Positions 12,369 to 39,011 of a stretch of DNA of 40,235 bases are shown here, one piece after another (the stretch's first letter is position 1; every line of letters begins with the position of its first letter). The notes beneath the pieces were generated by a model, which worked only from the letters and a program-made list of their open reading frames with translations, ran no database searches and was not told the origin of the DNA. Origin of the DNA: Candidatus Nitrosotalea bavarica (GTDB lineage Archaea > Thermoproteota > Nitrososphaeria > Nitrososphaerales > Nitrosopumilaceae). Position numbers and translations under genes: made by a program. The stretch is taken from positions 66,404 to 106,638 of the forward strand of contig NZ_FUYK01000010.1 of assembly GCF_900167955.1 (NCBI RefSeq), given 5' to 3'.

Positions 12369-12417
12369 AGATAAAAAGGAAAAAGAGGGAAAGTTAGTTT
12401 GGTTTTAGACTAGTCTA
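12369..12417 (-). terminator. Pyrimidine-rich terminator of the S-layer gene
   Basis: On the minus strand, the S-layer stop codon lies within a perfect 12-bp palindrome TAGACTAGTCTA (12406-12417). About 15 bp later a tract CTTTCCCTCTTTTTCCTTTTT (about 12372-12392) follows. U-rich tracts of this type end archaeal transcripts; the palindrome may add a weak hairpin. Confidence 0.5.
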
Positions 12418-15400
12418 TGCTACGTTGATTGTAGTACTCAAAGGCGGTGACAATGCGTTTGGATTATCAATGCTCTGCCATACAAAGATTTGAGCAGTGT
12501 ATGTTCCAGAGGCTGATGGAGTCCAAGATTGTGCCGGATTGAGTGATTGACCTGCAGTCAATGTTCCTGTGATCCAAGAGAGTGATACTGTAACACCGTT
12601 AGCATCTTGTATTTGTACAAGGTATGCAAATGGCTGATCTCTGTCCTGGCCGTTTGTCAAGTCAGCAGTAACTTGTATCTGCTGTCCTGATTTTACTGTG
12701 CCATTAAGTGCATTGCCAAACGAGTCAACTATTCTTGGGTTAGATGCCGGTGCTCTTTCGAGTGGTGGCACGATTGTTCCAATGAATGTTGTCGATGTCA
12801 ATCGCAATTGATCAGATGGTGTGTATGGGGCTGGCAGAGTTCTGTCTGCATATTCGCCTGTAACTGTATCGCCTTCTGCAACGTGGAGTCTGTTTCCAGA
12901 TGACTGGAAGTTAGTGGTAAAGTACACTGTACCTTGGAAGATACCTGTTGCTTGACCTGTCTCTGTCATGGTGAGTTTGATACCACCAGCATCAGAGTCA
13001 GACCATACGTTGGTGTCGAACTTGTCGACTGCCTTTGGATTAAGGTTCATGTCTGGGTCAACTATCTGCAATACTCCTTGTCCATTTGCTGGATAGGATG
13101 CTTCTAACCATTTGATTTCACCAATGTTCCATCGGATGAGTGCTGAACCAGTAACTGTTTGATCTCTTGTGAATTCAAACGATACTGATACACCGTCCTG
13201 TTCTTCAGAAGGTAAGAATCCGTCTGTTGGACCGACTCCTGATGGGCCTGAACCTGTTGGTTCCAAGCCTGCTCCGTCAACTCCAGTTGAGCCCTTTAAG
13301 TTGGGATCTCCTGTGAGGATGACGTAACCTGTGAAGATACCTGTATCGACTCCAGTCTCGACCAATTGATATTGTGCGATGCTGTTACCTCTTGTGGAAA
13401 CACTTACTGTGTTTTCATTGTTGGTACCAATGGTGTCGATAAGGTTTGGATCAAAGTTGTGATCTGGTGCGACTACGGTTATGTAGACACGGTCAGTCCA
13501 AGTGTATACTTTCTGATCGAGTTCAACTGTTGCACCAAAGTTTGATGTGTAGATGGTCAAGTCAATATCTTGACTGTTTGCACCTACTACTTTGGAGCCT
13601 GCTGGACCCCAGTCAGTGTATTCTAATTGGATCTGTTCTCCTCTTTCAAGTAAATTATTATTCAATGTTGATGGAATCTTAATTACTGATTGGAAGATAC
13701 CTGTGTCTTTACCTGTCTCCACAAATGAACCTGGCTTTGCATCAAATGCAGAAGCCTGGCCACCTTGTTGACCCATTGTGCCCTTGAAGGCATGTGAGTC
13801 CCATTCGATGACATCTAGTGGGACGGTTTCAGCAGTCTGTGAATCAAGGTTCAAGTCTGGTTCCACGAGTGTGAGAATCATGTCTGAACCGATGATGTAT
13901 ACGGACTTGTCTGATTGTAGTACACCGTTTCTTAAGTCAAATGTTGAAGAATCTGTGACAGTTTGTGTATGACCTGAAGCATCATTCAAGTCTGTGTAGG
14001 TTACGGTGAGTACATCACCTTGTCTTACACAGTAATTGCCTGATGGTTGGGTTGTAGATACAGAAGAATGGACGGTATGGAATCTGTCTTTTTCAGCAGT
14101 ACTAGTGGTTCCATCTGTTGGAGTCCACTGGGTTTGTGTTGATGGACAGTCTGTACCTGTAGGACCGTCAGAGTATCTAATTGGCAAGTCTGCTTGGAAG
14201 ATTCCTGCGTCTGGAGCGATTTCGGTCATTGGACCAAGATCTCTAACAGCAGGCCAAGTTGGATCGCTAGTACCTCCGTTAAGTCCTGTTGCGGTAGCCG
14301 GAATGGCTGTGCCGTTTAGGTTAACGATGGTACCAGGTGATACACCTCCGCCGCCGTTGTAGACTGCTGGACCTCCAGCGGTTGCTAATAGAACTGAGTT
14401 TCCTTGTCTTGTAATCTGTACTGCTACTGGGCCGTGATTCACGTCATTTACACCTTGTGCAATATGGTCTGTACCCGTTGCGGCTAAGTTAAAGTCCTGA
14501 TCATTTACTCTGATATGGATTAAAACGTCACCGTTTGACAGAGTATTGAGAGCGGTTAAACCGCTGCCAGTAAGATCTCTGTGCATTGGGAAGACACCTG
14601 CTTCACTGGTTGTAGATTTAGTATTTGGAACTGGGAAGTCACCAACACCAGCAGTAGCAATGCTACCAAATGGTACTGGATATACTGCCTTGTCCAATTT
14701 GACTGAACCTGTGTTGCCTTGTATACCTGCATTGTCAGAAACTTCTACAGTCTTGCCAGAGTCATCTCTAAAGTCAACATAGTTGACCTTGATGTTCTGA
14801 CCTACTGATGAAATTACTGCGCTATTTTGACACAATTGGTCTGGGACTTCAAAGGTACCAGTAAAGATACCTGTTGATGGGCCAGTCTCAACTAGTGAGA
14901 AGCCAGTAGCGGATAAGCTTGATGCAAATCCACCAACGGTTGCCGTATTGTTGTCATCTGCAAGTATTGCGTTATTACCGCCAAAGCATGAACCAGTGTT
15001 CTCAGATGTGAATGCAGTTGTTGCGCCACTTAATGTGTGACCCATGTTTGCATCTGACCATCTAACGTTTTGCTGACCAAATTCGACATCTGCGAGTCTA
15101 CCAAATGCGTGGCCATCTGATAATGTTCCAAGGCCTGCTTTACCGATTGTATCGGTTGCATTGTCTTGAATATTACCGAGGTTATTACCAGAATTTGGTC
15201 CTAGGCCAGTTGTTGGCTTGACTGCTGTGTAGATATCTATCAAGTCGTTGTTAACGTTAAGGTCACTATCTGCTAGTGTAATTGTCACAGTATCGCCTAT
15301 CTTGTATGTCTTGCTATCAAATGAAATGACACCAGTGTGAGTTGGGATATCTTGTTGTGCAGATATCTGTGTGTTTACACCATCGGCACCAAGATCCAAG

Positions 15401-17886
15401 TATGTGATCTGTGGAGCACGAGCCTCTGACTGGAGCATGTCTTGAATTGCTGGGAAGTACACATCATGCTGGATGGTTCTTAATACGGAGTAGGTATTTG
15501 GATCAAAGATGTTCAACTGGTTGAGCATTAGATACTGGTTTGTACCTGTAAAGACTCCAGTGTTGTCACCGGTCTCTTCAAGTTCATACCTGTAAATGCC
15601 GTTGTTGATTCTTTGATTATTTTGTGTACCGTCACCGATTAGACCAACGCTGAAGAAATCAACTACTATTGGTTGTCCACCCTGTGATGAGGATAGAACA
15701 ACATTTCCTCCACTTGTGGTGAAGTTAATGAGTATACCAATTGGAGCTGTCTTCGGAACATTAAACAGATCTTTATTCAATTGAGCTGGATTTGCTACTT
15801 GTGCGGTAGGTGAACCAGTAACGCCGTTAGTGGTTGTACCGTTCAAGTTGACAAAGTCCTGTGTATTGGTGTCGTTTACCAGTGAAATCAAGTTTAATGC
15901 TCCACTTGGTAAGCCGTCCTTACCTCCATGACCTGTTAAGGCAGTTCCAGTTGCATTGTATGCTAGGAATACCTGAACATTAGAAATTGATCCACCTGTT
16001 GCCTGATTAAGACTAGAGAATGATCTCACGTCATAATTGAGGAAGTTGAATCCCTTGAAATTCTGTGTATTCAATGTCCTGTTTGTAGGATGAATTGTAT
16101 TCAACAGAGTATTCATGGTTGTCTTTAAGTCAATGAATAGACCTGTGCCGGTGCCTAATGCACCTGCGTTAAATGTTCCTGAACCAGTTTGATTTGTGAA
16201 ATTGAAGATTGGTCTTGCGCTAAATGCTTCATCCTCTTGCTTGTTCACGGAACTTGCATTGTGATTATTCACACCAATTCCACCAGTCAATCTCACGGTA
16301 GTAATACCGGAAACTGCTGTTTGAGTGGCTCTTATCTGGCTGATTAATGTAGCATTTTCTGCTGCTACACCACCGCTAGATAAGGTAAATGGAGTTCCAA
16401 TGACCATTGCTGTGGATCTCTTGTATGTTGGATCCCAGAGGAACATTCTCTCAGAGAGTTTTGCATTCTTGTTATCATCGTTGTCAGTTAGAGTAACCGG
16501 AATTCTCTGACCAGATGCCCAAGTATTATTTTGTGCAGTCTGTGTTAGAGTTGCAAATGCGAAACCGCCTACGATACTTGTAGAGATATCATTGTATCTT
16601 ACAACTGCAGACTGGCCTCGTATTATTGGTGAATCTACTGTTACAACGTTTGATTTCTTACCACCGTCCCAGTTACCAAAGATTCCAGTGTTTACACCAC
16701 CTTGCTCATTGAAGGTCATTGGCTGTGAACCAGTAGTAGCAGTGACTGATTTAGTACTGACTTTAGCTGGGTCACCACGCTGTGTACCATAGAAGATTTG
16801 TTTACCGTTTGCTTCGAAGTCAACTACTCTTACAGATTGTGCTGTTGGAGCGAATGTTAACTTTCCATTGTGGTTGAACATCATGGTTGTCATGTTACCG
16901 ACGAGGTTTTGTGCACCGGCTGTGCCGTCTGCATCAGTACCACCGTTTCGGTTAAAGAGCTCATAAAATGCTGTATTGTTGTTAGCATTAGTGCCCCATG
17001 TCCACGAATCATCTTCTGTTGGGTCTATGTTTAACTGTGGATCGTTGATTTGAATGAAGACTTGAGAGTTTTGTGGATAAGCGCTTCTATCTGCAGTAGT
17101 AGTGATTAGATTCTGTGGAATCCTGTCAAAAGTCAAGTTGACGATTTGGTCGCCACCGTTCTTTTGATAATCAACTGTTACTGTTGTTGGAATTGCTGAG
17201 AAATCATAGAGCTGAATTACTGGCCAAATGTGGGTATATTCGGTCATGTTCTTACTTGAACCAAATCCTGATGGATTGTAGTTGAGAGTCTTATTTTGTC
17301 TCACAACGTGTTCCATTTGGAGATAGCCGTTATCATTACCACCTAGATCTGTACAGCTACCAAACGTTCCTGAGGTAACTATATGACCTAGAGTATGATT
17401 TGTAGAACCTTGACCACCCTGTGCAATGGTGAATCCCTTTGTATCAGAGTATGATAATCCTCCAAGTTGGCCACCTAAGGCACTTGTTGAAGAACAGAAT
17501 CCACCAAAGTTGAGGCCTTTACCACTAATACCTACTTGGGTATTAGCTGCTGTAATTGCTTGATTTCTATCCGCAAAGTACGCATACCAATTTCCGTCTG
17601 TCGCCTGTGCCATTCTCAGTCTCTTACCGTTGACGGTTACTACAGGTTCTCCATAAGACTGGTCTAATCTGTTTATATCAGGATCAGCCACGACTACTTG
17701 GACAACTTGAGGACCGGCAAAGTAGTTATTCCACTGAGAATTTTCAGCAGAGACAAACAAGTTTGCGTTTGTTGATTGAGCTTGTGCGTGTGGGAGTGCG
17801 TTTGGCATTCCTACTACTGCACTGCTCGCTAGAAGTATTGTTAATAGTGTTAGACTAGTTATTTTTCGTAATATGTTGTTGTACAT
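12415..17886 (-). CDS. S-layer protein with tandem Ig-like ETG/TGIF domains
   Basis: An 1823-residue exported protein, by far the largest gene here, matching the thaumarchaeal S-layer type. The signal peptide is MYNNILRKITSLTLLTILLA...AQAQS (about 1-38). The body is a string of beta domains, each opening with D..VY..GD.V.ITV.D.DLN.D and closing with ETG..TGIF.G...L. The ETG..TG(I/V)F box recurs near nt 12940, 13340, 13695, 14200, 14595 (degenerate), 14865, 15550 and 16685. A distinct C-terminal domain of ~110 residues follows ERAPAS. Acidic D/N-rich turns suggest calcium or cation binding, and N-x-S/T sequons are abundant. G/C-ending codons are more common than in neighbours, as expected for very high expression. 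TATA at 17914-17923, near-leaderless ATG. Confidence 0.93.
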   Translation of the reverse strand: MYNNILRKITSLTLLTILLASSAVVGMPNALPHAQAQSTNANLFVSAENSQWNNYFAGPQVVQVVVADPDINRLDQSYGEPVVTVNGKRLRMAQATDGNWYAYFADRNQAITAANTQVGISGKGLNFGGFCSSTSALGGQLGGLSYSDTKGFTIAQGGQGSTNHTLGHIVTSGTFGSCTDLGGNDNGYLQMEHVVRQNKTLNYNPSGFGSSKNMTEYTHIWPVIQLYDFSAIPTTVTVDYQKNGGDQIVNLTFDRIPQNLITTTADRSAYPQNSQVFIQINDPQLNIDPTEDDSWTWGTNANNNTAFYELFNRNGGTDADGTAGAQNLVGNMTTMMFNHNGKLTFAPTAQSVRVVDFEANGKQIFYGTQRGDPAKVSTKSVTATTGSQPMTFNEQGGVNTGIFGNWDGGKKSNVVTVDSPIIRGQSAVVRYNDISTSIVGGFAFATLTQTAQNNTWASGQRIPVTLTDNDDNKNAKLSERMFLWDPTYKRSTAMVIGTPFTLSSGGVAAENATLISQIRATQTAVSGITTVRLTGGIGVNNHNASSVNKQEDEAFSARPIFNFTNQTGSGTFNAGALGTGTGLFIDLKTTMNTLLNTIHPTNRTLNTQNFKGFNFLNYDVRSFSSLNQATGGSISNVQVFLAYNATGTALTGHGGKDGLPSGALNLISLVNDTNTQDFVNLNGTTTNGVTGSPTAQVANPAQLNKDLFNVPKTAPIGILINFTTSGGNVVLSSSQGGQPIVVDFFSVGLIGDGTQNNQRINNGIYRYELEETGDNTGVFTGTNQYLMLNQLNIFDPNTYSVLRTIQHDVYFPAIQDMLQSEARAPQITYLDLGADGVNTQISAQQDIPTHTGVISFDSKTYKIGDTVTITLADSDLNVNNDLIDIYTAVKPTTGLGPNSGNNLGNIQDNATDTIGKAGLGTLSDGHAFGRLADVEFGQQNVRWSDANMGHTLSGATTAFTSENTGSCFGGNNAILADDNNTATVGGFASSLSATGFSLVETGPSTGIFTGTFEVPDQLCQNSAVISSVGQNIKVNYVDFRDDSGKTVEVSDNAGIQGNTGSVKLDKAVYPVPFGSIATAGVGDFPVPNTKSTTSEAGVFPMHRDLTGSGLTALNTLSNGDVLIHIRVNDQDFNLAATGTDHIAQGVNDVNHGPVAVQITRQGNSVLLATAGGPAVYNGGGGVSPGTIVNLNGTAIPATATGLNGGTSDPTWPAVRDLGPMTEIAPDAGIFQADLPIRYSDGPTGTDCPSTQTQWTPTDGTTSTAEKDRFHTVHSSVSTTQPSGNYCVRQGDVLTVTYTDLNDASGHTQTVTDSSTFDLRNGVLQSDKSVYIIGSDMILTLVEPDLNLDSQTAETVPLDVIEWDSHAFKGTMGQQGGQASAFDAKPGSFVETGKDTGIFQSVIKIPSTLNNNLLERGEQIQLEYTDWGPAGSKVVGANSQDIDLTIYTSNFGATVELDQKVYTWTDRVYITVVAPDHNFDPNLIDTIGTNNENTVSVSTRGNSIAQYQLVETGVDTGIFTGYVILTGDPNLKGSTGVDGAGLEPTGSGPSGVGPTDGFLPSEEQDGVSVSFEFTRDQTVTGSALIRWNIGEIKWLEASYPANGQGVLQIVDPDMNLNPKAVDKFDTNVWSDSDAGGIKLTMTETGQATGIFQGTVYFTTNFQSSGNRLHVAEGDTVTGEYADRTLPAPYTPSDQLRLTSTTFIGTIVPPLERAPASNPRIVDSFGNALNGTVKSGQQIQVTADLTNGQDRDQPFAYLVQIQDANGVTVSLSWITGTLTAGQSLNPAQSWTPSASGTYTAQIFVWQSIDNPNALSPPLSTTINVA

Positions 17887-20669: not shown

Positions 20670-22067
20670 TTGTCAGAATTTGATTCATTGTTAAGCAAAC
20701 TCTTGGAGCAAAGGCCCGACCTCACAAAGGCACAGATTGATGAGATGATACAGAAAAAGAAAGAAAAGATTGGTGCAGGATATCTAACAGACCAAGGAGC
20801 GCTCTTTCTGATAGCATCTGATCTTGGAGTTTCACTAAACGAGCCACTAAAAGTAGAGATGGGTCTAAAGGATCTCTATGTTGGTGCAAAAGAGATAACT
20901 CTTGCCACAAGAGTGATGAATGTTTATCCAGTAAAGCAGTTTGCACGCAAAGATGGTTCCCAGTTTCTATTACGTACAATGACAGTATACGATGGAGATT
21001 CAAGAGCCCAGGTAAAACTATGGGACGAAAAGGCAAACTTGCCAGGAATTGAGAATCTAAAACCAGGTGACCTTGTAAAAATAATCAAGGCATATGTCAA
21101 GTCAGATATGAAGGGAAATCCAATAATCAACGTAGGCTCTGGCTCAAATATTGAGCCAAATGGAACGGTAAGTAATATCCCATCTCTTGATGCAATAACT
21201 GATGACGTAGGCAGTGTAAAAGAGAACCAGCAAAATCTCGTAGTGACTGGCATCCTTGATGGAAATATCAGGGCTACAGAATTTACAAACTTTAAAGGAG
21301 AGCCCGGAAAGTCAGTGCAGCTTAGACTCAAAGGAAAAGATGGAACAGTTGTACGAGTAGTTTTGTGGAATGTAGATCAAAAAACTATACCCAAAGTAAT
21401 TACATCGGGTGCAAAGACCAGACTGATTGGAGTAAAGACAAAGGTTGGCCAGATGGGTCTTGAACTTCATGGTGATGAAGGAACAGTAATAGAGATAGAG
21501 GGAGCAACAGAGATTCAACCAATTATTATGAGAATTTTATCTATTACAAAAAGCGATTCTGGAAATACATTAATTCTTGGAACAAGGCAGGACAAGAATC
21601 TCATCAGCATTACTGATACAGTATCTTTGACAAAAGATCTTGTCTTAGGTGATGTCATAGAATGCATGCCATCAAAGGTATATGGAAATTCTATCACACT
21701 TGAGGGTGATTCATTTGTAAGAAAGATTGATGATCAAAAAATTCCAACGTTATCAGAAATTAGAACAAAGATTAAGGAAATAAAACCAGCTGACACACTT
21801 TACTGTGTTGAAGCAATAATTCTAAAGTCACCAGAAAAAAAAGAGATCCAGACAAAGACAGGTGAGACTATCTTACTTTCTGAGACATTTATTGAAGACG
21901 ATACAGGTCAGATATGGCTCAAGGGTTGGAGATCACAGGCAAGACTTTTGGAACAATTTACTCAAGGAGAAATAATTACAGTAACTGCAGTTAATGCAAA
22001 ATCAGGTCTTGAAGGAAGAATAGAATTGTTTTTGAGCCCCTATTCTGTTATAACACGAAAGAACTAG
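20670..22067 (+). CDS. Single-stranded DNA-binding protein, RPA-like, multiple OB folds
   Basis: A 465-residue protein with the archaeal RPA/RPA41-like layout. An N-terminal helical region (1-60) with the LTKAQIDEMIQKKKEKIGAGYLTDQGALFLIASDLGV motif is followed by at least three OB folds, about 65-165 (DLYVGAKEITLATRVMNVYPVKQF...), 180-280 (NLVVTGILDGNIRATEFTNF) and 360-460 (DTLYCVEAIILKS...IWLKGWRSQA). It binds and protects ssDNA in replication and repair. No CxxC zinc finger is seen in the last domain. It starts at TTG 20670; its stop overlaps the helicase gene stop by 4 bp, tail to tail. Confidence 0.85.
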   Translation: MSEFDSLLSKLLEQRPDLTKAQIDEMIQKKKEKIGAGYLTDQGALFLIASDLGVSLNEPLKVEMGLKDLYVGAKEITLATRVMNVYPVKQFARKDGSQFLLRTMTVYDGDSRAQVKLWDEKANLPGIENLKPGDLVKIIKAYVKSDMKGNPIINVGSGSNIEPNGTVSNIPSLDAITDDVGSVKENQQNLVVTGILDGNIRATEFTNFKGEPGKSVQLRLKGKDGTVVRVVLWNVDQKTIPKVITSGAKTRLIGVKTKVGQMGLELHGDEGTVIEIEGATEIQPIIMRILSITKSDSGNTLILGTRQDKNLISITDTVSLTKDLVLGDVIECMPSKVYGNSITLEGDSFVRKIDDQKIPTLSEIRTKIKEIKPADTLYCVEAIILKSPEKKEIQTKTGETILLSETFIEDDTGQIWLKGWRSQARLLEQFTQGEIITVTAVNAKSGLEGRIELFLSPYSVITRKN

Positions 22068-24817
22068 TCCCAAAATCCCCTAGTTGTAACATACTGTCGT
22101 TCTGCTTCGTAAATTTGTTTATAGAGTTCTTCTTCTCCAACCATGTTTCTTAGAATCCTTGCAGCAGTGTCAGCTCCTACACCATAGCCTGATATGACAA
22201 CAAGCGCAGTCTTGCCAAAGTTTGCAAGAAGTGATGACACCTTCCAGGCTCGATTAAACTTGTGGTTCTCTTCAGCAGTAATTTTTTTGCCTGCAAACTT
22301 TTTTTGCACTATTTTTGGCAGGTCATAGTCAGAGTAAAATGTAGCAGATATCTGCCGTGACTTGCAATATGGACACGATGGAATCTCATTTATCTGACCT
22401 GTCTCAATTACTTTTTCCCACTTGCCACACCTTACACACACCAGCCTATGTCGTGTCTTTAAGAGTCTAGATTTTACCAGATCCAATATCCCCTTGTCCA
22501 TATTTGCAGGAGATGCATAGTATTTTGTTGTATGATCAAGTATAGGCTCTGCAAGTTTTGAAAAACCATCAACTTCAACCCATGTTATCTTGATCTTGTT
22601 TAATTTTATATCTTGGAGTAATTGAGAGGTGTTTTGCAAGTCATACTTGTCATGATATAATTCCCGTAGTGCCTCTTTTGCAAGTGCAGTTTTAGAATAT
22701 TTTTCATACAAAAATCTTGCAGATTTTCTGTCATAGACTGCCCCTCTTCCCACGATTCCAAACTTTTTTGCCACACACCAAGTTCTCCAGTTTACATTGT
22801 GTGTCCCAGCAAGCGAAGCTTGTACAATTTCTTGAAGATCATAATCATCTATAAGAATATCAATAACAGCTTTTTCCAATATCCTCCCATTTGATGAAAG
22901 CATTATTCTATATGCATCAGACCTAGAGTTTACAAGATATCCACTTTTGGCAGAGAGCATTGCAGAAAGCAACATTGCAAGGGTAGAATTTATCCTAGTC
23001 CCAAAACAGCAATGTACCACTACAGTATTTCTCACTCGTTGTGATTCAACAACAATATTTTTTTCGTCTGGAATTACATCAAGTTTTAGGTTATCCATTA
23101 TTTTATTTGTAAAAGATGTAATGATGGTCTTTGTTCTGACCATACCGACTTTTTTCGCCGTATTATAGTCAACTGGGATGTTCTCACCTTCCCAGTATGG
23201 TACATTAATTCCAGCAGACTGGATGGGCTCTACATTTACTTTTAAAGACTTGTCATCTACGTTTAGAATTCTCCATTGCATGCCCCTTAGTACAAAGACA
23301 CTTCCTTGTTCCCCATTATCACCTACAAATCTCTGGTCAAGGCTACCGATTATTTTCTTTGAAGCAGTATCAAATACTTTGAATTTTAAAATGTCTGGAA
23401 TTGTTGAAAGATTTTCAAAATAGTACCTAAATGAGCGGCCTTTTTTTGTAAACGTCATCTCTTCTTTATCTAGATAAATTATAGAGCCATTGTGCAAAAT
23501 CTCAAGTACTGCAAGAAGGTCTTCTGCGGTTATGTTTCTAAATGAATAGGCCTGTCTTGCCATATTTAATGCAAAGTCAACTGAGACTTGGCCAAATTGC
23601 ATAGCCATCCCTACCAAGTGATGTGCAAGGACATCTAGTGCACCGTCATGAACTATCTGATCCTCAATAGATTTCTCCTTTACACGCTCCAAGATTGCAA
23701 GTGCTTCAATCTCATCATCAGGATTGTTAGTTACAATCAGTCCCTTTGCAGAAGAACCTCTTGTGTGTCTACTTCGTCCAATTCTTTGCATTAGTTTTGA
23801 CACTTGCCTTGGTGAACCATAATGAATTACAAGTTCAACAGATCCAATATCAAGACCAAGCTCAAGTGATGAAGTACAAACCACAATACCTGGTTTTCCA
23901 GACTTGAGTGTCTCTTCAGTCTCCTCACGAACCTGCTGAGAAAGAGAACCATGATGCAATTCTATTGCAAGACTAGATCTTTCCTTTAGAACTGATGCAA
24001 GATATTCTGATTCGCCCCTAGTGTTGGTAAATAACAATACCGGAGAATTGGCATAGTTTTTTGTGACATATTCTATGATGTGGTCTACTACATCTGTAAT
24101 TGTACCTTCTATGTATTTTACCTCAACGTCGTATTTTCTAATTGAATGATCTTCAATTATTCTACATTTTCTTTTTGTTCCAACTACAAATTTTCCAGCA
24201 TCTCCAGTATTTCCTACTGTTGCAGAAAGTCCCACTCTAGTAATTGGATATGTAGTGTTTGCCTGCAATCTTTCAAGACTGAGTGAGAGTTGTGCGCCTC
24301 TTTCGTTGCCTAAAAGTTCGTGTACTTCGTCCAATACTATCCATTCAAGCTCATCAAGTGCCTTTAGCATTCCAGCTTGTGTCAGTAAAATTATGATTGT
24401 TTCAGGTGTTGTTATCAGTATGTCAGGCGGTGAGAGATTTATCTTGCGTCTCATTGATTGAGACGTATCACCGTGTCTTACTTCGATTCGAAGACCCTCA
24501 GTTTCTGCATATTCAATAATCCTCTTAAAGACATCCCTATTGAGTGCACGAAGTGGGGTGACGTATAGTACTTTTATCTTGTCTTGTTTTTTAGATTTTG
24601 CAACTCTTGCAAAGATTGGAATTACAGCAGTCTCCGTTTTTCCCGAACCTGTTGGTGCAATTACCAGCGAATCAATCTTTTGAAATATTATAGGAGCAGC
24701 CTTCTTTTGTATCTCAGTTAAATTCTTAAAACCAAGATTACGAAATTTTACTTCTAACTCAAGTAGTAGATGATTCTGGCTCTTTACTTTGTCTTGTTCT
24801 AGATCGCTCGTATACCA
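22064..24817 (-). CDS. Lhr-type superfamily 2 helicase; no canonical start codon in frame
   Basis: Large DEAD/DEAH helicase of the Lhr type. The 5' part, which has no ATG, GTG or TTG, carries LGFKNLTEIQKKAAP (Q motif), APTGSGKTET (Walker A, near 24640) and TPLRALNRD (Ia). The first in-frame ATG is at 24454, after these motifs, and would give an inactive 796-residue product. Downstream are LDEVHELL (motif II), SATVGN (III), and QRIGRSRHTRG (VI). The C-terminal Lhr region ends with a zinc-ribbon-like CVRCG...CPYC and a helix-hairpin-helix-like tail. The frame is open to 24817, so coordinates give the open frame, not a proven start. Likely cause is an indel near 24760 or non-standard initiation. 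Acts in DNA repair in the cytosol. Confidence 0.75.
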   Translation of the reverse strand, partial: WYTSDLEQDKVKSQNHLLLELEVKFRNLGFKNLTEIQKKAAPIIFQKIDSLVIAPTGSGKTETAVIPIFARVAKSKKQDKIKVLYVTPLRALNRDVFKRIIEYAETEGLRIEVRHGDTSQSMRRKINLSPPDILITTPETIIILLTQAGMLKALDELEWIVLDEVHELLGNERGAQLSLSLERLQANTTYPITRVGLSATVGNTGDAGKFVVGTKRKCRIIEDHSIRKYDVEVKYIEGTITDVVDHIIEYVTKNYANSPVLLFTNTRGESEYLASVLKERSSLAIELHHGSLSQQVREETEETLKSGKPGIVVCTSSLELGLDIGSVELVIHYGSPRQVSKLMQRIGRSRHTRGSSAKGLIVTNNPDDEIEALAILERVKEKSIEDQIVHDGALDVLAHHLVGMAMQFGQVSVDFALNMARQAYSFRNITAEDLLAVLEILHNGSIIYLDKEEMTFTKKGRSFRYYFENLSTIPDILKFKVFDTASKKIIGSLDQRFVGDNGEQGSVFVLRGMQWRILNVDDKSLKVNVEPIQSAGINVPYWEGENIPVDYNTAKKVGMVRTKTIITSFTNKIMDNLKLDVIPDEKNIVVESQRVRNTVVVHCCFGTRINSTLAMLLSAMLSAKSGYLVNSRSDAYRIMLSSNGRILEKAVIDILIDDYDLQEIVQASLAGTHNVNWRTWCVAKKFGIVGRGAVYDRKSARFLYEKYSKTALAKEALRELYHDKYDLQNTSQLLQDIKLNKIKITWVEVDGFSKLAEPILDHTTKYYASPANMDKGILDLVKSRLLKTRHRLVCVRCGKWEKVIETGQINEIPSCPYCKSRQISATFYSDYDLPKIVQKKFAGKKITAEENHKFNRAWKVSSLLANFGKTALVVISGYGVGADTAARILRNMVGEEELYKQIYEAERQYVTTRGFWD

Positions 24818-36212: not shown

Positions 36213-39011
36213 TTATTTTGTCGTACTGTTTGATGATTCTATACTAATTTTGGATACCCGTGCAGCATCAGCATCTACTGGCTGGTTAGTAGCAGGATCT
36301 GTCTGTAGTGCTGCTATCTTGTCAACAACATCTTGACCAGATACGACCTGACCAAATAAAGTATACTGATTGTTCAACCAAGGCGCATCTCCAACTGTGA
36401 TAAAGAATTGAGAGCTTCCACTGTTAACATCAGTGCTGCGTGCCATGCCTACCATGTATTTTGTGAAATTCATATTAGAACTAAATTCTGGTGGAATTGT
36501 ATGTCCTGAATCTCCAAGGCCCCAAGTACTTCTATCACCTTTTATCGTATTTGGATCACCGCCCTGAATCATAAAGCCTGGAATTATTCTATGAAATACA
36601 GTTCCGTCATAGAAACCAGAATTAGCAAGATTGACAAAATTTGTTGTTGTCTGTGGTGCTACATTATTAAAAAATTTGAATTTTATCTCTCCAAACTTTG
36701 TATCAATAACTGCAATGTTTCCACCATTGCTTGTAGTGGTTGTGGGTTTTATTGTAGGTGTAACTGAGCCACTTCCTTGTGAATTACTATTAGTAGATGA
36801 TGTCACATTCTGAGATTGATAGTCTGGGTTTACTTGATAAATCAATACGCCTGAAAAGACACCCGAGTCTGTCCTATTGAGACTTGCAGATGAATATACT
36901 AGACGTAGTGGCCCATTTCCGTTTGAAGGGTATTTGATGGTTTTTGAGTAAATTGCCGTATAACCTGTAGTGTAGGTTGGTGATTCATTGTGAGTATTTG
37001 AATCATAATATGTTAGAGGAGTAAACGGAAACATTTGTCCAAGCAAAGTATTTTGCCAGAAATAATCTGTTGGCGTAAAGGCATCATCTTGTAGGAATTT
37101 AGATGAATCAAGGCCGCCTATTTTCATGAACCATTGTTTCTTGCTTTCATCTCCTCCTCCTCCAAGTACGTAAAGGTCTTGACCGTTTGAAACAAACTTT
37201 TGGCCTACAACATAAACTAGAACATAGTTTGCTCCCATCTTCTTTAATGCCTTCCATGCTTCATCAGGAGAATCTAAAAGCATTCTTGCAATGTTTGCTA
37301 TTACATTTGTATCAACTGTGGCGTTATCAGCAATTGTCGTTCTTTCTCCCAAAGTCTGTATCCAGTATCCATAGTCCCACCATGAGGCAACCACAGAATC
37401 TTTTGGAGTGTTAGTTTTTAGCCAGTTTAGAGCATCTGGCCAGTCACTAGTTGAGATGGCAAAGTTTGAACCTCCATTAAGAATTGTAGGTGGGGATTTT
37501 GTTATTGATATCCAATTTCCATTTACTGGATACAAGGTTGGAACCAGAAATAATGCCACTATCACAGCAACAAACGCTATCTTTGGAATTCTTCCAAGCA
37601 AATCACTAGTTTTCTTAATCGGAGTTGTTTCCTTTCTTGTTCGAGTTGTTCCTTTGTTTGATGATTCGATGACCTTGACCTGCTTGTTTTCTTTTTTCAG
37701 AATATCTGTCACAAGTATGGCAAGACCTATAGATGAAAGTATGATTACAGAAGTTGCAGTAAGTAATTCTAATCTAGAGAAAGTAGAACCAGAATACGCT
37801 CCAACTATACCTATGATCAAAGCAAATACAATCATCTCATTTCTAAGAGAGAATTTGGACGTATTTTCATCTCCATTCTTCTTTCTGAACACAAGCCAGA
37901 TTCCAAGGCCTGCAAATAACATTAGCACTGAGAAATAGCTAAAGTTTTGTGCAAGTGTTGGCGTAGCATGCTCTGCAACAGAGTCAACAAGAGGATCCTC
38001 GGAGGTCAGGAATGGATCCATTGCATTTAGATAACGAAAACTTGTAGAATGAAAAGCGCCTGAAGATAATACCATGCCACCAATTATTACAAGAGCGGCT
38101 AAAGCTAGTAGACTATTACGCATACGATGTTGTTCTTTACTATATTTTTGAATGAAGATTATTATTACAAGCAATATAGTTGGCCCAATCATTGCAAATC
38201 CCCTCATGCCAAATACAAAAGTTGGACCAGGTCTTGCAAACAGACCTCCAGATATCACCATGGTTACTGCTACAAATAATGGAACTGCCCAAAGCAGAAA
38301 ATTATGATCTTTTCGTATGAAAGGCAGGGCAACGAAGAACAATCCCAGAGGAAGAAGGAAGAACTCTATTCCTCCCCAAGATGCAAAACCTGTAGCAAGG
38401 AAGAATCCTCCTCCTACCATCTTGGCAGCAGCAACTTTTTTGTTCTTGGATTTTAGTCCACTTAGAAACAGATAGACTCCCAATAACCCATAAAACAAAC
38501 CTAAAGGTTCAGACTTGAACCATCCAATGGTTCCTCTAACTATTATTGGAGGCGATAATGCAAAGAAGAGAGAAGCAAAGAGACCTGCACTAGTACCTCC
38601 CAAAACACGCACAAGTGCAAATATGACTATTACCGTCATAGAACCAAAAACTACTGGAAAAATTATTGTAAAGTCATAAAGACTCATTCCGCCACCAAAT
38701 ATCTTGTATAGAACTGCATCAGTAACATGTAATGGTACTTGTGCTGTATCAAAGACATCTCTCCCAGCAGGATACCAGCTCATAGTATCATGCCAATGGA
38801 CATATGCATCTAATCCATTATCTAATAGATACTGTGTTGCTCTATAATTAAAGAATGGATCAAATTCGTTTAATTGAAAACCATAATCAGCAGCTTGAGA
38901 TCTAACCATTGCAGAAATGGAAAATGAAATTATAAGAATTCCAATTACAAGTAGATGCCTTAGATGAAAGTCAAATTTTCTTACAGTAAACAATTTAGCA
39001 TCTTGTATCAA
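36213..39011 (-). CDS. aglB: AglB oligosaccharyltransferase fused to a C-terminal cyclophilin
   Basis: A 932-residue membrane protein that transfers lipid-linked glycans to N-x-S/T sites on exported proteins. The N-terminal ~480 residues are a STT3-type multi-helix domain with the catalytic-acid loop NEFDPFFNYRATQYL (D51). An extracellular domain contains WWDYGYW (about 543-549). After a Ser/Thr/Asn-rich linker (about 725-764), residues 765-932 form a complete cyclophilin peptidyl-prolyl isomerase: FHRIIPGFMIQGGD (catalytic Arg), GSSQFFIT, and LFGQVVSGQDVVDKI. The isomerase would therefore lie outside the cell with the glycosyl-transfer site. It starts at TTG 39011. Convergent with Nop10. The gene is otherwise normal for AglB, so this is a true fusion, not a run-on. 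Confidence 0.93.
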   Translation of the reverse strand: MIQDAKLFTVRKFDFHLRHLLVIGILIISFSISAMVRSQAADYGFQLNEFDPFFNYRATQYLLDNGLDAYVHWHDTMSWYPAGRDVFDTAQVPLHVTDAVLYKIFGGGMSLYDFTIIFPVVFGSMTVIVIFALVRVLGGTSAGLFASLFFALSPPIIVRGTIGWFKSEPLGLFYGLLGVYLFLSGLKSKNKKVAAAKMVGGGFFLATGFASWGGIEFFLLPLGLFFVALPFIRKDHNFLLWAVPLFVAVTMVISGGLFARPGPTFVFGMRGFAMIGPTILLVIIIFIQKYSKEQHRMRNSLLALAALVIIGGMVLSSGAFHSTSFRYLNAMDPFLTSEDPLVDSVAEHATPTLAQNFSYFSVLMLFAGLGIWLVFRKKNGDENTSKFSLRNEMIVFALIIGIVGAYSGSTFSRLELLTATSVIILSSIGLAILVTDILKKENKQVKVIESSNKGTTRTRKETTPIKKTSDLLGRIPKIAFVAVIVALFLVPTLYPVNGNWISITKSPPTILNGGSNFAISTSDWPDALNWLKTNTPKDSVVASWWDYGYWIQTLGERTTIADNATVDTNVIANIARMLLDSPDEAWKALKKMGANYVLVYVVGQKFVSNGQDLYVLGGGGDESKKQWFMKIGGLDSSKFLQDDAFTPTDYFWQNTLLGQMFPFTPLTYYDSNTHNESPTYTTGYTAIYSKTIKYPSNGNGPLRLVYSSASLNRTDSGVFSGVLIYQVNPDYQSQNVTSSTNSNSQGSGSVTPTIKPTTTTSNGGNIAVIDTKFGEIKFKFFNNVAPQTTTNFVNLANSGFYDGTVFHRIIPGFMIQGGDPNTIKGDRSTWGLGDSGHTIPPEFSSNMNFTKYMVGMARSTDVNSGSSQFFITVGDAPWLNNQYTLFGQVVSGQDVVDKIAALQTDPATNQPVDADAARVSKISIESSNSTTK

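Follow-up and report, generated by a model that had tools for sequence, protein, structure and literature searches.

Candidatus Nitrosotalea bavarica was found to encode an oligosaccharyltransferase of the AglB/STT3 type that carries a cyclophilin-type prolyl isomerase at the C-terminus of the same polypeptide. The fusion of this cyclophilin to AglB, its intact active site and its location outside the cell are well supported, and on the sequence evidence the protein is a genuine and ancient fusion and probably a bifunctional enzyme. Its function is best explained, at a probability of about 0.55, as that of a one-chain glycosylation-and-folding station in which AglB, with an active cyclophilin tethered to it, would serve exported chains as they emerge. 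All coordinates below refer to the window, i.e., the whole 40,235-nucleotide stretch that was analyzed, unless another contig is named.

An Oligosaccharyltransferase and a Cyclophilin in a Single Open Frame

The features of the fusion gene, together with the S-layer gene discussed further below, were assigned as follows.

36213-39011, minus strand: AglB/STT3-cyclophilin fusion gene, 932 codons, TTG start, single open frame
37515-38972, minus strand: oligosaccharyltransferase membrane part, residues 14-499 (hydropathy, AlphaFold2 helices, PDB fold matches)
38859-38861, minus strand: catalytic Asp D51 in the first-loop EFD motif, aligned with EFDP of human STT3A; invariant
38508-38516, minus strand: second metal motif KSE, residues 166-168 (phmmer alignment; DNE in human STT3A)
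37971-37982, minus strand: EL5 motif SVAE, residues 344-347 (E347); invariant
36831-37514, minus strand: extracellular C-terminal globular domain, residues 500-727 (Pfam AglB/STT3 core, invariant WWDYG)
37368-37382, minus strand: WWDYG, residues 544-548; invariant
36717-36830, minus strand: Ser/Thr/Asn-rich linker, residues 728-765 (low pLDDT, relaxed selection, lengths and composition in relatives)
36267-36716, minus strand: cyclophilin-type prolyl isomerase domain, residues 766-915 (Pfam, PDB cyclophilins, pLDDT, active site)
12415-17886, minus strand: putative S-layer protein, 1823 aa, with signal peptide (partial match to the NCBIfam S-layer model, below cut-off)

The preliminary description of this DNA had proposed an AglB-cyclophilin fusion, and this was confirmed, since the open frame holds STT3 (PF02516, residues 46-409, E 1e-26), STT3/PglB/AglB core (PF21436, residues 538-596, above cut-off) and Pro_isomerase (PF00160, residues 769-912, E 7e-45) domains in Pfam searches. 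The C-terminal span that it had given for the cyclophilin, nt 36216-36719, was correct and corresponds to residues 765-932, with the domain core at 766-915, and all the cyclophilin motifs that it quoted were found in the frame. A whole-genome search also returned the fusion as an unbroken 938-aa stop-to-stop frame. The source genome (1.55 Mb, 97% complete) has one AglB and, besides the fused cyclophilin, one other, a free 166-aa protein. Among named relatives, the AglB part was closest to Candidatus Nitrosotalea, at up to 88%. Elsewhere in the window, an Lhr-type helicase-like ORF (22064-24454, minus strand) has its listed start inside the DEAD domain, with a profile match from position 91; its true start may lie upstream, or the ORF may be truncated.

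The Oligosaccharyltransferase Part

Residues 14-651 gave human STT3A as the best PDB sequence match (E 7e-55), and a PDB fold search with the oligosaccharyltransferase part returned human and yeast STT3 (E 1e-18 to 1e-26) as well as Archaeoglobus AglB. The acceptor-binding WWDYG motif, the catalytic D51 and the EL5 residue E347 were all present, the SVAE motif being what we take to be the counterpart of the eukaryotic SVSE. At the second metal motif (DXD/DXE), the fusion has KSE instead of DNE; the AglB, earlier called otherwise complete and full in both its STT3 and AglB core domains, is odd in the first acid of the DXE motif, which is a lysine (K166). The K166-S167-E168 triplet was invariant in all 18 aligned Nitrososphaeria AglBs, whether fused or unfused. 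Since this motif is known to vary among AglBs (D161/H163 in Archaeoglobus AglB), and since N-glycosylation has been reported for Nitrososphaera viennensis, a member of the same class as the fusion host (PMC12153357), AglB orthology was retained and the metal site flagged. By its domains, its fold matches and its remaining motifs, this part of the protein qualifies as an AglB/STT3 oligosaccharyltransferase.

Topology and Tether

The last hydrophobic segment spans residues 478-496 by hydropathy, and taken together with the AlphaFold2 model it indicates a final membrane helix at about 469-496; no transmembrane helix was found after residue 496 by either approach. Given the extracellular position of the AglB C-terminal domain (PMC5131992), this predicted topology strongly implies that the cyclophilin is extracytoplasmic and tethered next to the oligosaccharyltransferase catalytic domain, which agrees with the outer-side placement suggested at the outset.

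The segment joining the two enzymes, previously noted as Ser/Thr-rich, has that composition and is predicted to be disordered (728-765), with AlphaFold2 pLDDT below 50 at residues 735-763. It is about 38 residues long, contains one N-X-T sequon at N735 and is under relaxed selection, unlike both flanking parts. Across relatives, the tether ranges from 12 to 98 residues and is rich in Thr, Ser and Asn. When repeat-rich and near-duplicate rows were dropped, these linkers held 30 N-X-S/T sequons against 21.8 in shuffled sequences, a modest effect, with 18 of 1000 shuffles reaching the observed count; the excess fits exposure to the oligosaccharyltransferase, and the tether is probably glycosylated. 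In the L092 linker (genome G100), the tether contains tandem NGTSPSNITTLASSLA-type repeats with N-glycosylation sequons in each. The AlphaFold2 model had no fixed contact between the oligosaccharyltransferase and cyclophilin halves, which, with the predicted disorder of the linker, speaks against any firm claim of their physical coupling.

The Cyclophilin Domain

Residues of about 765-913 matched many PDB cyclophilins in sequence (E 1e-29), AlphaFold2 modeled the domain with block-mean pLDDT of 70-93, and in a fold search the model lay within an rmsd of 1.4-2 Å of PDB cyclophilins. We numbered its active site after CypA, a presumed correspondence with the positions set by motif. The equivalents of R55, F60, Q63, A101, Q111, F113 and L122 were all found in the window cyclophilin (R808 for R55 and Q868 for Q111), and the claim that the domain is intact was thus upheld. 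Among the fused copies, R55, A101, Q111 and L122 equivalents were conserved in 34 of 34, and F60, Q63 and F113 equivalents in all except one or two. The N102 position is Arg and the H126 position Tyr, as in most relatives, and the W121 equivalent, present in the window cyclophilin, occurs in 9/34 fused copies. Within the genus, dN/dS for the cyclophilin was 0.05-0.12, similar to that of the oligosaccharyltransferase part, and it was 0.165 against the next genus. Judging from these ratios (about 0.05-0.17), the cyclophilin is maintained by purifying selection, and we infer that the tethered domain is catalytically active.

Distribution and Origin of the Fusion

The AglB part was searched in 80 sampled Nitrososphaeria genomes, 71 of which had an AglB. 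Fused proteins, cross-checked with cyclophilin positions, were present in 34 of the 80 genomes, i.e., 12 in family f1 and 20 in family f3, which appear to be Nitrosopumilaceae and Nitrososphaeraceae, respectively, and one each in f5 and f2. The AglBs of the ten other sampled Nitrososphaeria families were all unfused, and among 250 genomes sampled from the phylum no cyclophilin frame longer than 700 aa was found outside Nitrososphaeria. Among 80 named contigs, the fusion occurred in Nitrosotalea, Nitrosotenuis, Nitrososphaera, Nitrosocosmicus and unnamed Nitrososphaeraceae, and was absent from Nitrosopumilus, Nitrosarchaeum, Nitrosopelagicus, Cenarchaeum and Marine Group I. Most named Nitrososphaera contigs were fused, strain AFS alone being unfused, and going by these contigs the AglB of N. 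viennensis is likely to be fused as well. The preliminary description had let its case depend on close relatives, and these, including named Nitrosotalea contigs, do carry the fusion; a restriction to the source genus was rejected, as the fusion was found over four families and in other named genera. No STT3 was found in genomes G067, G077, G080, G099 and G163 (f2 g22) or in G123, G146 and G289 (f1 g15, ~0.8 Mb), and those of them checked for a cyclophilin were also without one, making this a joint absence.

In the AglB tree, a single clade (support 100) took in every fused copy; each of its three deep branches had fused members, and unfused copies were nested within the clade. The simplest reading of this tree is a single ancestral fusion with several later losses, and the pattern fits loss in Nitrosopumilus, Nitrosarchaeum, Nitrosopelagicus, Cenarchaeum and a Nitrosopolaris-like branch. 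The unfused AglBs of the Nitrosopolaris-like branch end in a Ser/Thr/Pro/Asn-rich tail without cyclophilin, as expected of a leftover after cyclophilin loss; apart from this tail, tblastn found no cyclophilin remnants downstream of unfused AglBs. The cyclophilin-domain tree was poorly resolved and had fused copies in three groups, and after removal of long branches a single fused-cyclophilin clade cost only 0.08 log-likelihood units and was not rejected (AU p 0.496). Three independent fusions are unneeded in light of this test and of the one clade in the AglB tree; independent origins are possible. Several lineages dropped the fusion yet have both functions in separate proteins, and so it is dispensable.

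Other Prolyl Isomerases of the Group

Of 14 unfused f1 genomes, 13 had a separate cyclophilin whose frame measured 505-923 aa; the large cyclophilins examined there all had a signal peptide, joined to PsbP-like and CFI-box-CTERM parts or, in one case, to a PQQ dehydrogenase and a DsbA-like domain. In the outgroup families, cyclophilins are anchored by an N-terminal transmembrane helix. Because cyclophilins are thus secreted separately in unfused f1 and membrane-anchored in outgroups, the class appears to have a constant requirement for a cyclophilin outside the cytoplasm. Five of the 12 fused f1 genomes also have a large secreted cyclophilin, and 11 fused genomes yielded no cyclophilin besides the fused domain; the comparison of fused and unfused complements is descriptive and confounded by phylogeny. 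Most fused genomes have a parvulin gene, and replacement of the lost fusion by parvulin was unsupported, the gene occurring in fused and unfused genomes alike.

Several other cyclophilin proteins were observed in the course of these searches. In genome G037, a single 923-aa frame (L104:1892-4660, plus strand) encodes a signal peptide, a cyclophilin, a PQQ glucose/sorbosone dehydrogenase and a DsbA-like thioredoxin domain. On L222 and L223 (minus strand; genomes G431 and G351), which come from elsewhere in the phylum, an anchored extracellular protein of ~600 aa has a C-terminal cyclophilin and, by eye only, a solute-binding resemblance. Nitrosocosmicus-like genomes of group f3g23 (L074:526-1977, L117:109-1467 and L116) have a second secreted protein of ~300 unassigned residues and a cyclophilin, which is close to the AglB-fused one and apparently its duplicate.

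Possible Function and Clients

In the one-chain station that we propose, an exported chain would leave the Sec channel and be N-glycosylated by AglB, while the tethered cyclophilin would isomerize (cis/trans) prolines near or beyond the sequon. This might help the freshly glycosylated segment to fold, or it might hold sequon regions accessible long enough for glycosylation, and in either case glycosylation and folding would be coupled in the fusion. Clients would be S-layer proteins and other secreted surface proteins. In N. viennensis, whose single AglB is detected in the proteome, glycosylation was detected on the S-layer protein and on two multicopper oxidases (PMC12153357), which makes S-layer proteins plausible clients. 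The putative S-layer protein of the window is a possible one; it has 81 Pro and 20 N-X-S/T sequons, where its composition would predict about 28, and hence no sequon enrichment. A wider version of the proposal, which we put forward tentatively, is that the fusion is a co-translocational one-polypeptide machine in which prolyl isomerization sets whether and when sequons are glycosylated, ancestral in the fused, ammonia-oxidizer families and lost, with its functions split, in Nitrosopumilus-type marine lineages.

AglB might instead be mainly a membrane anchor, the fusion having replaced the cyclophilin's own transmembrane segment while both enzymes serve their clients independently, an equally simple reading and the chief rival of the proposed station, which we hold to be possible, if less likely. 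The N-terminal helix of the outgroup cyclophilins, the signal peptide, PsbP-like and CFI-box-CTERM parts of unfused Nitrosopumilaceae cyclophilins and the predicted disorder of the linker all agree with it, and the other extracellular cyclophilin fusions, to the solute-binding-like protein and the PQQ dehydrogenase-DsbA, suggest that anchoring is a general theme. However, that an oligosaccharyltransferase was chosen among membrane proteins and kept over four families argues for a benefit of the position, and the additional secreted cyclophilin of five of the 12 fused f1 genomes indicates that the fused copy is no mere substitute. It is improbable, in our estimation, that the cyclophilin is a non-catalytic peptide binder that holds Pro-containing acceptors at the oligosaccharyltransferase site and so raises glycosylation efficiency, much as has been proposed for yeast Ost3/Ost6. 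The conservation of the peptide-binding F60, Q63 and L122 equivalents would suit such a role, as would the effect on site efficiency of Ost3/Ost6, the eukaryotic oligosaccharyltransferase partner subunits (PMC7226087), and the buried catalytic site of FKBP11 in a human structure (PMC12804085), but the catalytic Arg55 equivalent, kept in 34/34 fused copies, is unneeded for simple binding. Finally, a merger of adjacent genes through a missed stop or an assembly error is hardly conceivable despite the low-complexity linker and a related contig, L151, with a split frame (783 + 150 aa), as homologues in independent genomes of four families show in-frame fusions with differing linker lengths and thereby answer the worry about a stop or frame break at residues 725-765.

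Comparison With Known Systems

In eukaryotes, the folding factors around the oligosaccharyltransferase are separate subunits or visitors, and a coupling of prolyl isomerization to N-glycosylation is hard to test there. One chain with both enzymes makes this coupling directly testable in a simple system, with an oligosaccharyltransferase whose sequence closely resembles that of eukaryotic STT3 and a host from a very abundant archaeal group, and fused and unfused ammonia oxidizers offer a natural comparison. The S-layer of N. viennensis is glycosylated, while N-glycosylation was undetected in Nitrosopumilus piranensis, a contrast of two species only (PMC12153357); the AglB of Nitrosopumilus, its genus, is unfused. 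Our search of open-access papers turned up no description of an AglB-cyclophilin fusion, and within that scope the initial impression of novelty held; neither a survey of archaeal PPIases (PMC8530231) nor the glycoproteomics paper on ammonia-oxidizing archaea (PMC12153357) mentions it. Both domains belong to known families, and their joining in one oligosaccharyltransferase polypeptide is apparently undescribed.

The fusion shares with archaeal AglB and eukaryotic STT3 (GT66) the multi-transmembrane part, the EFD, SVAE and WWDYG motifs and the extracellular catalytic domain, human and yeast STT3 being its nearest solved structures, and differs from them in its C-terminal tether and cyclophilin and in the Lys at the first DXE acid. 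PpiA/PpiB, PPIL1 and PPWD1 have the same cyclophilin fold and active site, but are free, nuclear or membrane-anchored, whereas the present domain is covalently attached to an oligosaccharyltransferase outside the cell. For NmPin of Nitrosopumilus maritimus, likewise a prolyl isomerase, a role on the S-layer in the space between it and the membrane has been proposed, but NmPin is a membrane-associated, lipid-bound, unfused protein of the parvulin family (PMC4922055). Ost3/Ost6 (MAGT1/TUSC3) also keep a folding-enzyme-type domain at the oligosaccharyltransferase, in their case an oxidoreductase on a separate subunit rather than a prolyl isomerase on the catalytic one (PMC7226087). A functional parallel comes from human OST-A translocons, which can carry FKBP11, a PPIase-family protein that sits beside STT3 on the lumenal side; its catalytic site is buried by CCDC134, and the authors of that structure oppose nascent-chain isomerization there (PMC12804085). 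FKBP11 is a separate polypeptide of the FKBP family with ribosome-dependent binding (PMC12804085), whereas the domain described here has a cyclophilin rather than an FKBP fold and belongs to the same chain as the oligosaccharyltransferase.
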